Shown: one piece after another, positions 10,526-48,449 of the stretch
Position numbering within the stretch: the stretch's first letter is position 1
How the letters are laid out: each line of letters begins with the position of its first letter
Made by a program: the position numbers and the translations under genes
Origin: Ochrovirga pacifica
GTDB taxonomy: Bacteria; Bacteroidota; Bacteroidia; Flavobacteriales; Flavobacteriaceae
Direction of reading: 5' to 3'
NCBI RefSeq assembly: GCF_000220525.1
Contig: NZ_AFPK01000063.1
Location: forward strand, 1-64,000
Length of the DNA: 64,000 bases
The notes under the pieces: generated by a model
What the model saw: only the letters and a program-made list of their open reading frames with translations
What the model was told of the DNA's origin: nothing
Databases searched by the model: none

Positions 10526-11760
10526 ATGACGTTTAAAGAACTACACCTAAGCCCTAAAATTTTAAAGGCTGTTGCAGAACAAAACTACAACACTCCCACT
10601 CCTATTCAACAAAAAATTATACCATATGTGTTGGATGGTATAGATGTAATAGGTTGTGCCCAAACAGGAACGGGAAAAACTGCAGCCTTTGCACTACCTA
10701 TTTTAGAACGTTTGTTGCCGCAACAAGATGCCGAAAAAAAAGGAAAAAAATAAAAGCTTTGGTGATTAGTCCTACTAGAGAGCTGACTCAGCAAATTGAA
10801 GAGAACTTTAAGAGTTACAGTATTTACACCAATCTTAGGTCACTTGCTATTTATGGAGGTACTTCTATGGCACCACAAATTGAACAGCTAAACAAAGGAA
10901 TTGATGTTTTAATTGCAACCCCAGGTAGACTGCTAGATTTACACAAAAGAGATGTGGTAAACTTAGATTATGTTCAGGTATTGGTATTAGACGAAGCCGA
11001 TATGATGCTAGATATGGGGTTTATTGATGATGTAAAAAAAATAGAAAGACTGTGTCCCGATCAAAAACAAACCTTACTCTTTTCTGCTACCATGCCTCCT
11101 AAAATTGAAGCTTTGGCAGATGAGTTGTTAACCGAACCCGCAAAAGTATCTGTTGCAGCAATATCATCAGCAGCAAAAACAGTAAGTCAAGAACTGTATC
11201 GTGTACCAAAACCTAAAAAAATAGAGTTGTGTTTGCATTTGCTTAGGAATAATTTGCATGGAAATATGATTATTTTTAGAAGAACCAAGTTTGGTGTTGA
11301 AAAATTGGAACAAACACTTCTTAAAAATAATTATAAAGTTGATAGTATTCATGGAGATAAAACACAATCAGCTAGAACAAAAGCTCTTAACAAATTTAAA
11401 AACAACGAAATCAACATATTGATAGCTACAGATGTTGCTGCTAGAGGGATTGATATTCCAGATCTAGACATTGTTATTAATTTTGACATTCCTAATATTC
11501 CTGAAAGTTATGTACACCGAATTGGAAGAACGGGAAGAGCTGGAAAAGAGGGACGTGCTTTGTCTTTCTGTTCTGCCGATGAAAAAGCGTATATCTTGAC
11601 AATTCAAAAATTAATAGGAAAAACCATCGCTGTAGAAGAAAATCACCCTTATCCTTTAGACCCAAAAGCAAAACCCGAAGTTCATAAAAAACAAGGGAGT
11701 AAGTACAGAAAAGGAAGAAAGTCAGAAGCTTCTAAAAAAAAGAAAAAACGTTGGTACTAA
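10526..11760 (+). pseudogene. DEAD-box RNA helicase (RhlE type), interrupted by a -1 frameshift
   Basis: Joined across the shift, this is a ~411-residue RhlE-type RNA helicase of normal length: Q motif [10 protein letters not shown], Walker [26 protein letters not shown] (VLDEADMMLD), SAT, and the helicase C domain ending in HRIGRTGRAGKEGRA, then a Lys-rich tail. The first frame (from 10526) stops at TAA 10751-10753; the rest continues in the -1 frame to 11760. The break lies at an A7 run (10744-10750) read as GGA AAA AAA TAA, so a -1 slip on A-AAA-AAA gives an uninterrupted protein, as would one extra A. Possibilities are a homopolymer error in the assembly, a real mutation, or genuine slippage. 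No stop codon or damage occurs elsewhere in either part, which argues against long-standing decay. Confidence 0.8.
10734..10753 (+). other. A8-GG-A7 homopolymer with slippery heptamer and adjacent stop
   Basis: The run of eight A, GG, then seven A is followed at once by TAA. In the upstream frame the codons are GAA AAA AAA GGA AAA AAA TAA, so A-AAA-AAA is in the correct phase for -1 slippage with the stop in the next codon. I see no clear stimulatory stem-loop directly downstream. Confidence 0.6.
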
Positions 11761-12972: not shown

Positions 12973-14151
12973 ATGCTTAAACATTACTTCTACAAAATTC
13001 TACATTTTAGTATTGGTATTTTTACAATGTTGTGTATTTATACAACGAGTGCACAGCAAAAAACTGTTGTAAAAGGTACCGTTTATGACCAAAACAATGA
13101 AACAGTTCCTTTTGTAACAGTAGGAATTGTAAACAAGACCATTGGTACGGCTAGTACAATGGATGGAGAATTTTCTTTAATGATTACCGATAAAGAAATG
13201 CAAGATACTTTGTATGTATCAGGCTTAGGATTTGATACCTACAAAATAAAAGTACAAGAATATCTTGCAAAAAAAGATAGAAAAATTGTCTTAAAAGAAA
13301 ATATTGTAAACTTAGAAACAGTACAGTTGCTACATCCTATTGATTATGTGAAAAATGCATTAGACAAGTTAAAAGAAAATACTCTTAGCAAAACACATGT
13401 TAAAGAAATTTTATACCGTAGAGCCGCTACTGAAAACGACAAAGCCAAGTTTTTTGTAGAAAACTACATAAAATTTAGAGATCGTGGACCTGCATATTGG
13501 ATGGGAACTATACAGGTTACAGAATCTAGAAAATCGGCAGACTACAGGTTCTGGAAACGTACACAATGGAGACACTCTATTCATAATATGTGTGATGTAA
13601 ACCCATTAAGACCTGGAGATTCATTCCACAAAAGAGATTTAGAAAAGTTTGAGTGGAAAAAAATAGGAAGTTCTTCTTACGAAGGTGAAGATGTTGTAAT
13701 TCTTGAAGGAAGAAACCCTGACAAAAAATGGGAAAAAATGACTTTGTATGTAGGGATAGATAACTATCAAGTGTTTAAAATTGAAAGAGGAAGTTCTATT
13801 TTTATTTACAAAAAACACAAAAGTGGAAAAGTACATTTGAGTTATTTTCAAAATGAATGGAATTTTCCAAAAGATCAAATTCCTGCAAATATGTTAGGAA
13901 CAGCAGCTGAAACACTACATTATAGAATCGAAGCTTTTGTTTTAAACGTAGAAACTGAAAGAAAGAAAACCAGAATTCGTGAGTACGGAATAGATATAGA
14001 TATGGGGTCTTTAGAACTACCTTACAACCCAGAGTTCTGGAAAGGTTTAAGTTTGCCTCCAGACACCAAGTTCTACAAGCGTATTAAGTCTGAATTAGAA
14101 GGTTTGTATGGGGTTCCTTTAGAAAAACAGTTTGAATTGGTGAACCAATAA
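12973..14151 (+). CDS. Carboxypeptidase-regulatory-like domain protein, copy 1
   Basis: A 392-residue exported protein. A signal peptide (about residues 1-27, ending SAQQ) is followed by a carboxypeptidase D regulatory-like beta-sandwich (VVKGTVYDQNNETVPFVTVGI to about residue 120) that is normally found at the N-terminus of TonB receptors. The rest (from PIDYVKNALDKLKENT) is a conserved domain of unknown function. There is no receptor plug or barrel. The protein is probably periplasmic or surface-associated. It is the first of two tandem paralogs that share most residues, including an identical 25-residue C-terminal stretch around LPPDTKFYKRIKSELEGLYG. An imperfect promoter core (AATATTTG, about 12908-12915) lies upstream, and the second copy follows 46 bases after the stop. 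Confidence 0.75.
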   Translation: MLKHYFYKILHFSIGIFTMLCIYTTSAQQKTVVKGTVYDQNNETVPFVTVGIVNKTIGTASTMDGEFSLMITDKEMQDTLYVSGLGFDTYKIKVQEYLAKKDRKIVLKENIVNLETVQLLHPIDYVKNALDKLKENTLSKTHVKEILYRRAATENDKAKFFVENYIKFRDRGPAYWMGTIQVTESRKSADYRFWKRTQWRHSIHNMCDVNPLRPGDSFHKRDLEKFEWKKIGSSSYEGEDVVILEGRNPDKKWEKMTLYVGIDNYQVFKIERGSSIFIYKKHKSGKVHLSYFQNEWNFPKDQIPANMLGTAAETLHYRIEAFVLNVETERKKTRIREYGIDIDMGSLELPYNPEFWKGLSLPPDTKFYKRIKSELEGLYGVPLEKQFELVNQ

Positions 14152-14197: not shown

Positions 14198-15358
14198 ATG
14201 ATAAAAAGCAAAATATTATGGATTGTAATTCTTTTAATGAACTTTGTAATCCAAGCTCAAACAAAAAAAACCGTTGTTCAGGGAACAATCTATGACGAAA
14301 CCAACGAAACTATTCCTTTTGTAACGATAGGAATTGTAAACAAAACCATTGGTACAGCAAGTACTATGGATGGAGAGTTTGCCTTGATGATTACTGATAA
14401 TGAAATGCAAGATACTTTGTATGTTTCAGGTCTAGGATTTGATACTTATAAAATCAAAATACAAGATTACTTGGCAAAGAAAGATCGAAAAATTGTTTTA
14501 AAAGAAAATGTAGTTAATTTAGAAACAGTTGAACTTTTACACCCTATTGATTATGTAGAAAAAGCATTAGACAATCTTAAGAAGAATACATTAAGTAAAA
14601 CCCATGTTAAGGAGATTCTATACAGAAGAGCAGCAACTGAAGAAGGAAAATCAAAGTTTTTTGTTGAGAATTACATCAAACTAAAAGGAAGAGGACCTGC
14701 TTATTGGGTGGGACAGGTTCAAGTAACTGAATCTAGAAAATCTGCAGATTATCGCTTTTGGAAAAGAACACAATGGAGACATGCAGTTTTGGGATTGAAC
14801 GACACCAATCCATTAACTCCAAACGATTCTGAACATGCAAGAAACTTAAGAAAATTTGCATGGAAAAAAACAGGAAGTTCTTCTTACGAAGGTGAAGATG
14901 TTGTTATTTTAGAAGGAAAAAACCCAGACATAGATTGGGAAAAAATTATTCTTTATGTTGGGATTGATAAGTATCAGATTTTTAGAATTGAACGAGGACG
15001 AAGCCTTTTTATTTATAAAAAACACAACAACGGAAAAGTGTATTTAAGCTACTACAAAAATCAATGGAGGTTTCCTAAAAGTCACATTCCAAGAAACCTT
15101 TGGGGAACAGCTGCAGAAACACTCGAATACAAATCGGAAGCATTTGTCTTAAATGTGATTACTGATAAAAAGAAAATGAAAATTAAACCTTATGGTGTAG
15201 ATATAGATATGGGATCGTTGGATTTACCTTATCATCCAGAGTTTTGGGCAAATCTAAGTTTGCCACCAGATACTAAATTTTACAAAAGAATCAAATCTGA
15301 ATTAGAAGGTTTGTATGGTGTGCCTTTAGAAAAACAGTTTGAATTGGTAAATAAATAA
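14198..15358 (+). CDS. Carboxypeptidase-regulatory-like domain protein, copy 2
   Basis: A 386-residue paralog of the preceding gene, with a signal peptide (about residues 1-22, ending IQAQ), the same regulatory-like beta-sandwich starting at VVQGTIYDETNETIPF and the same unknown C-terminal domain. The two differ mainly in the middle (HSIHNMCDVNPLRPGD against HAVLGLNDTNPLTPND) and at many synonymous DNA positions, so the duplication is old but both proteins are still constrained. No separate promoter core is seen; it is probably expressed with copy 1 and ends at the hairpin at 15372-15412. I do not recognise a function. Confidence 0.75.
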   Translation: MIKSKILWIVILLMNFVIQAQTKKTVVQGTIYDETNETIPFVTIGIVNKTIGTASTMDGEFALMITDNEMQDTLYVSGLGFDTYKIKIQDYLAKKDRKIVLKENVVNLETVELLHPIDYVEKALDNLKKNTLSKTHVKEILYRRAATEEGKSKFFVENYIKLKGRGPAYWVGQVQVTESRKSADYRFWKRTQWRHAVLGLNDTNPLTPNDSEHARNLRKFAWKKTGSSSYEGEDVVILEGKNPDIDWEKIILYVGIDKYQIFRIERGRSLFIYKKHNNGKVYLSYYKNQWRFPKSHIPRNLWGTAAETLEYKSEAFVLNVITDKKKMKIKPYGVDIDMGSLDLPYHPEFWANLSLPPDTKFYKRIKSELEGLYGVPLEKQFELVNK

Positions 15359-46800: not shown

Positions 46801-47550
46801 TTAAGCGGTAATCATACCTCCATCTACATTTAATGTTTGTCCTGTAATGTATGCAGACATGTCTGATGCTAAAAACACACAGGCATTGGCAATATCTTCA
46901 GGTTGACCTCCACGTTTTAATGGAATTCCTTGTCTCCAACCATCTACTACTGCTTCATCTAATTTAGCTGTCATTTCCGTTTCTATAAATCCTGGTGCAA
47001 TTGCATTGCAACGAATATTTCTAGATCCTAATTCTAAAGCTACAGATTTGGTAAACCCTAGCATCCCAGCTTTAGAAGCTGCGTAATTGGTTTGACCAGC
47101 ATTACCTTGCACCCCAACAACAGAACTCATATTAATAATGGATCCACCTCTTTGCTTCATCATTGGACGAATTACAGCCTTGGTTAAGTTAAAAACTGAT
47201 TTTAAATTGACTTCGATTACTTTGTCAAAATCTTCTTCGGAAATTCTCATTAATAAATTGTCTTTGGTAATTCCTGCATTGTTAATCAATACATCAATGG
47301 TACCAAATTCTTTTAATACATCAGCAGCAAGTTCTTGAGCAGCATCAAACTCTGCTGCATTAGATTGGTAACCTTTTGCTTTAACACCCATTTCAGACAA
47401 TTCATTTTCTAAAGCCTGTGCAGCTTCAACAGAAGAGCTAAAAGTAAAGGCAACATTTGCGCCTTGTTTGGCAAATTCTAAGGCAATTCCCTTACCAATT
47501 CCTCTGGTTGCTCCTGTAATGATTGCTGTTTTTCCTTCTAATAATCCCAT
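46801..47550 (-). CDS. fabG: 3-oxoacyl-[acyl-carrier-protein] reductase
   Basis: A 249-residue short-chain dehydrogenase that reduces beta-ketoacyl-ACP with NADPH in fatty-acid elongation. The cofactor loop TGATRGIGKGIA, the NNAG motif in LINNAGITKDN, the catalytic Ser in INMSSVVGVQG, YAASKAG and the PGFIETEMT segment are all present with FabG spacing, and the C-terminus YITGQTLNVDGGM is typical. It starts 14 bases after the sucD stop codon, so the two are co-transcribed from the sucD promoter and end at the hairpin at 46745-46779. Confidence 0.95.
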   Translation of the reverse strand: MGLLEGKTAIITGATRGIGKGIALEFAKQGANVAFTFSSSVEAAQALENELSEMGVKAKGYQSNAAEFDAAQELAADVLKEFGTIDVLINNAGITKDNLLMRISEEDFDKVIEVNLKSVFNLTKAVIRPMMKQRGGSIINMSSVVGVQGNAGQTNYAASKAGMLGFTKSVALELGSRNIRCNAIAPGFIETEMTAKLDEAVVDGWRQGIPLKRGGQPEDIANACVFLASDMSAYITGQTLNVDGGMITA

Positions 47551-47564
47551 ATAATTTGTATTAA

Positions 47565-48449
47565 TTACTTCGCAACTGATGCCAATACTTCTGCAACAGC
47601 TTCTCCAATTTTTGCAGGAGATTCTACAACTTTAATTCCATTAGCTGCTAAGATTTCCATTTTTGCTTGTGCAGACTCTCCTTCACCACTTACAATAGCT
47701 CCAGCATGTCCCATAGTACGGCCTGCAGGTGCTGTTTGTCCAGCAATAAATCCAACAACTGGTTTTTTATTTCCGTTTTCTTTTACCCATTTAGCTGCTT
47801 CTGCCTCTAATTGACCACCAATTTCACCAATCATTACGATGGCTTCAGTTTCATCGTCGTTCATCAACAACTCAACAGCTTCTTTGGTAGTGGTTCCAAT
47901 AATTGGGTCTCCTCCAATTCCAATTGCAGTTGTAATTCCAAATCCTTGTTTTACAACCTGGTCTGCAGCTTCGTAAGTTAATGTTCCAGATTTAGAAACG
48001 ATACCTACATTTCCTTTTTTGAAAATAAATCCTGGCATGATTCCTACTTTAGCTTCTTCTGGAGTAATAATTCCTGGACAGTTAGGTCCAATTAAACGAG
48101 TGTTCTTATTTTGAATATAAGCTTTAACTTTTACCATATCTCCTACAGGAATTCCCTCAGTAATACAGATGATTACTTTAATACCTGCATCGGCTGCCTC
48201 CATAATAGCATCGGCTGCAAAAGCTGGTGGTACAAAAATAATTGAAGTGTCTGCATCTGCTTTGTCTACAGCATCTTGTACTGTATTAAAAACAGGCTTT
48301 CCTAAGTGTTCCTGACCTCCTTTTCCTGGAGTAACACCACCCACAATGTTGGTTCCGTATTCAATCATTTGAGAAGCGTGAAAAGTTCCTTCACTTCCTG
48401 TAAATCCTTGTACTATGATTTTAGAATCTTTATTAACTAAAACACTCAT
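47565..48449 (-). CDS. sucD: Succinate-CoA ligase, ADP-forming, alpha subunit
   Basis: A 294-residue TCA-cycle enzyme subunit that binds CoA and carries the phosphohistidine in substrate-level phosphorylation. The CoA loop [18 protein letters not shown], the GGVTPGKGG segment, the ATP-citrate-lyase signature [18 protein letters not shown] and the active His in [11 protein letters not shown] are intact. The beta subunit gene sucC is not in the window, as is common in Bacteroidota. A TATATTTG core lies 37 bases upstream, and fabG follows. Confidence 0.96.

Follow-up and report, generated by a model that had tools for sequence, protein, structure and literature searches.

A frame break at a poly-A tract in an RhlE-like DEAD-box helicase gene, seen in one genome record of Ochrovirga pacifica

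We analysed one stretch of 64,000 nucleotides of Ochrovirga pacifica DNA (contig NZ_AFPK01000063.1, positions 1 to 64,000), which is called the window below. An RhlE-like DEAD-box RNA helicase gene lies in the window, divided over two reading frames. Its features are as follows.

10526–10753, plus strand: 5′ part of the gene for the RhlE-like DEAD-box RNA helicase, with 75 codons in frame 0, from the ATG at 10526 to a TAA (open reading frame, PRK10590, Pfam DEAD)
10734–10741, plus strand: run of eight A (A8) in a Lys-rich linker (window letters)
10744–10750, plus strand: run of seven A (A7), an A_AAA_AAA heptamer in the phase that allows a −1 slip (window letters)
10751–10753, plus strand: TAA stop in frame 0 (window letters, open reading frame list)
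10750–11760, plus strand: 3′ part of this gene, read in the −1 frame over 336 codons plus a stop, with the rest of DEAD and Helicase_C (open reading frame, profiles, constraint)

The initial annotation had described a first frame that ends at an A7 heptamer and a slip back by one base that restores a full-length DEAD-box protein. The window letters bear out this description. Positions 10734–10753 read A8-GG-A7-TAA, with the GG at 10742–10743 separating the two runs. Frame 0 is GGA AAA AAA TAA, and one base back the reading becomes AAA AAA ATA AAA GCT. The slippery heptamer A_AAA_AAA is present in exact −1 phase with the stop as the next codon (10744–10753), and the −1 frame is open from 10654 to 11760. 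From the letters alone, a one-base change would fit the A8 run and the A7 run alike and is not assignable to either.

The translation of the 5′ part carries AQTGTGKT, and that of the 3′ part carries PTREL, TPGR, DEAD, SAT, ATDVAARGID and HRIGRTGRAG, all of which we take to be DEAD-box helicase motifs. In a profile search, the 5′ part aligned to positions 1–73 of PRK10590 RhlE (E = 6.5e-25). It matches the start of Pfam DEAD, and the 3′ part matches the rest of DEAD together with all of Helicase_C; both domains, with conserved motifs, were found when the halves were scanned apart. Between them, the two parts account for most of the profiles of the RhlE-like family (NCBIfam PRK10590 RhlE1; Pfam DEAD and Helicase_C), in accordance with the earlier identification of an RhlE-type helicase in two pieces. 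The window gene differs from the family in being split over two frames: each half scanned alone scored 88 and 354.8 bits, respectively, against the PRK10590 cut-off of 743, and neither reached it.

The window also holds a tandem pair of very similar genes at 12973–14151 and 14198–15358 (392 and 386 aa). At E ≤ 1e-60, the second of them has two adjacent matches in W. heitensis and one each in G003 and G005.

We compared the split gene with its orthologues. The best 80 of 254 relatives were kept; 16 titled as Firmicutes lineages were left out, and the 64 inspected were nearly all titled Flavobacteriia or Bacteroidetes, with one MAG titled Chlorobiota. The nearest among the best 80 of 254 were five Wenyingzhuangia, with 83–86% amino-acid identity over the 3′ part. 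The site was open in 64/64 orthologues from this set, with an ATG 74–77 codons upstream of the aligned codon, and motif I, PTREL and DEAD lay in a single open frame in all 64, but not in the window. In a second collection of 60 genomes, 13 matched at E ≤ 1e-120, one being O. pacifica itself, and the other 47 had no match at that limit. All 12 other matches had frames of 413–436 codons, again with motif I, PTREL and DEAD in a single frame (12/12); a 200-mer of one of these 12 genomes (L090) also occurs in a member of the first set (L021). These motif counts refer to the looser pattern, and the strict pattern was found in 49/64 and 7/12.

The comparison bears directly on a programmed −1 ribosomal frameshift, or transcriptional slippage, that would give a 75-aa product and the full-length helicase. 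Both kinds of recoding were assessed by conservation of the break, which was found in 0/64 (from the best 80 of 254) and 0/12 orthologues. The initial annotation had stressed the slippage site in its title and had proposed to compare the tract in relatives; no relative inspected has the split, A runs of 7 or 8 are common among them, and no stimulator was seen by the folding described below, so that this part does not hold. Its other suggestion, a homopolymer length change, stands. The pattern is that of an isolated indel or error: the break occurs in one genome only, the gene is otherwise intact, and the relatives examined are unbroken.

The two halves had also been called otherwise undamaged, and our measurements agree. 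The 3′ part has no second stop and is under purifying selection; against the five Wenyingzhuangia, dN was 0.10–0.12 and dS was 1.4–1.7, the latter near saturation. Its pN/pS (0.145–0.167) was above all ten Wenyingzhuangia pairs (0.064–0.118), which may reflect saturation at the greater distance or a slight relaxation. For 66 codons of the 5′ part, the O. pacifica values (0.163–0.213) lay inside the Wenyingzhuangia range (0.056–0.216). Because both parts are constrained and the 3′ part is free of a second stop, we infer that the event would be recent, not real, or bypassed.

The heptamer in the right phase is one argument for programmed recoding. However, this phase can be a by-product of a lost base. 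In the orthologue alignment the linker is Lys-rich, of the type KKGKKIK/R, and is mostly encoded by AAA codons; therefore, one lost base yields A_AAA_AAA in the −1 phase, and in many cases the next codon is then a stop. Within the 36-nt site, the A run of greatest length had 7 or 8 A in 44/64 relatives, a stop lay one base ahead at the Ile codon in 24/64 (TAA in 23, TAG in 1), and both occurred together in 19/64. Since such runs and stops are this frequent, the phase and the adjoining stop are weak evidence, and both can be produced by one lost base in a Lys-Lys-Ile-Lys A run.

Open reading frames of at least 60 aa that end in A_AAA_AAA-stop numbered 8/490 in the O. pacifica sample, rhlE included, and 8/924 in the relatives. 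Among the eight of O. pacifica, the −1 continuation of rhlE was by far the longest (336 codons). The second-longest (C12:4572, 192 codons) starts with an ATG at the overlap and looks like the following gene.

We then considered RNA structure at the site. By simple folding without pseudoknots, the RNA downstream was no more structured than shuffles (z = −0.35, −0.68, −0.43 and +0.62), and no stimulatory structure for a −1 frameshift was found there by the same folding. A hairpin at 10757–10780 was predicted and then set aside, shuffles folding at least equally well in 67/200 cases (47, 58 and 141/200 in the others). According to PMC4066793, even the three most efficient V_VV.A_AA.G heptamers give about 0.3% frameshifting in E. 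coli without stimulators and at most about 3.7% with a favourable 3′ context, which also speaks against programming.

Other reports are more favourable to slippage. In PMC3711429, A_AAA_AAA figures as a site of ribosomal frameshifting, and A runs of more than 7 are listed as sites of transcriptional slippage. Eight A are suggested to slip productively in IS elements (PMC1088944), and a laboratory evolution experiment saw 8A-repeat indels bypassed (PMC3812077). However, selection against slippage shows at length nine in many genomes (PMC1088944), and the proven rescue of tssM1 takes place on a tract of 11 A (PMC4256274). The A8 run satisfies the n > 7 of PMC3711429 but falls below the nine of PMC1088944. 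The main text of PMC3711429 does not mention helicase, RhlE or DEAD. With the break not conserved and no downstream structure, there is no sign that slippage at rhlE was selected, and we consider programmed recoding extremely improbable. Some slippage rescue would be possible if the split is real.

We also weighed a real, phase-variable tract through which the helicase would be turned on and off reversibly. The adjacent A8 and A7 runs are mutable in principle, and the loss of the helicase could be covered: among 10 DEAD matches in the O. pacifica genome, three unbroken genes (C30, C44 and C64) outscore the split gene and could be RNA helicases able to take its place. However, the tracts are short, and nothing marks them among the 432 A/T runs of 7 and 134 of 8 in the O. 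pacifica sample. All relatives inspected are in frame, and PMC3711429 states that phase-variable proteins are for the most part environmentally exposed. We consider phase variation highly improbable.

The remaining question is how reliable the genome record is. We aligned proteins of four Wenyingzhuangia (W. gilva not among them) to stretches of the O. pacifica genome, of which 373 kb were readable. In the 87.8 kb of aligned DNA (196 pairs), of which contig C15 made up 56.8 kb, a shift was found in rhlE alone, and with all four queries. About 126 A/T runs of at least 7 in this aligned DNA gave no break beyond rhlE, and the reverse alignment (172 kb, 206 pairs) gave no frame break. Runs of 7, 8 and 9 A/T occurred at 115.7, 35.9 and 5.4 per 100 kb in O. 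pacifica, and at 93.8–124.0, 18.8–33.0 and 5.5–9.0 per 100 kb in the four Wenyingzhuangia. The run lengths of O. pacifica look normal, and its A runs do not look generally under-called. No contig end was shared among 35 unmasked termini (38 examined, 3 masked; 77 contigs), a result that does not identify the platform.

A reference-free screen at a threshold of 0.1 gave six candidates in the 373 kb of O. pacifica (1.61 per 100 kb), rhlE being one of them, and five in 787.5 kb of relatives (0.63 per 100 kb); the screen is weak, and a threshold of 0.15 loses rhlE. Two candidates (47552 and C10:1071) were open frames antisense to other genes, and two (C7 and C13) were neighbouring genes whose Pfam domains are unrelated to each other. 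In the last (C16), a reverse-transcriptase frame precedes one that has no Pfam match, and we took them as two genes on inspection by eye only.

Two of these places deserve description in their own right. At 47540–47570, an open frame antisense to the junction of the minus-strand genes 46801–47550 and 47565–48449 mimics a frame transition, and a similar antisense shadow is found in L161 near 11470. On the minus strand of C16, at 1134–2556, a 331-codon reverse-transcriptase frame (RVT_1, E = 1.5e-7) is followed by an overlapping frame of 154 codons, without a nearby ATG, in which YLHEIVHFFDF appears metallopeptidase-like by eye. The pair may represent two genes that form a unit, or a further frame break.

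Taken together, the split is very probably a one-base change in poly-A length in a normal and conserved DEAD-box helicase gene, present in one genome record only, and not programmed. The downstream constraint must be read with the caveat that it would also be expected were the gene still translated by slippage. The length change may have arisen in either of two ways, between which the choice is about even. In the first, which we give just under an even chance, replication slippage in the strain would have produced a recent indel; the strain would then be left with a fragment of 75 residues, to which leaky slippage would perhaps add some full-length helicase. In the second, which has somewhat less than an even chance, the gene of the organism is intact and the consensus of the draft assembly miscounts the A run. 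A consensus error agrees with the homopolymer position, with a gene that is otherwise undamaged and constrained, and with a break that occurs in no relative inspected. PMC3711429 ascribes unclustered frameshifts to indel mutation or sequencing error and, for genomes of its time, expects BLASTp-validated single ones to reflect errors and not genuine indels. However, the 87.8 kb alignment held no second frame break, the other five screen candidates in 373 kb were explained as neighbours or antisense shadows (C16 by eye only), and A runs were not generally under-called. These surveys speak against a generally error-ridden assembly and are still compatible with a single wrong base.

A one-base poly-A change of this kind has counterparts among known systems. 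In the GeneTack singleton frameshift genes (PMC3711429), too, the frame is broken beside poly-A in a single genome, with similarity as the validation, and no difference appeared in the tests made. The Citrobacter rodentium tssM1 gene (PMC4256274) also carries, close to a run of A, an early stop codon that slippage could get past; there, however, the run is 11 A long and slippage has been demonstrated at the RNA and protein levels, whereas in rhlE the runs are A8 and A7 and slippage is hypothetical. With the −1 sites of the A_AAA_AAA or A_AAA_AAG type, for example in IS elements (PMC4066793), rhlE shares the heptamer and the phase. It differs from them in that its break is not conserved and that no stimulator structure was found by our folding.

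These results show that a perfect-phase heptamer beside a stop can be the plain product of losing a single base from a Lys-rich A run when the genome is AT-rich. Because one lost base alone can give the slippery phase, phase taken by itself should not count as evidence of recoding, and a better test is whether orthologues share the break. The A tract of rhlE should be flagged as needing a check against reads. It is very improbable, in our view, that the split is real in the species and that slippage on A8-GG-A7 is the only source of the helicase, the gene being a newly arisen and still tolerated frameshift gene. If true, this would show how recoding sites begin.
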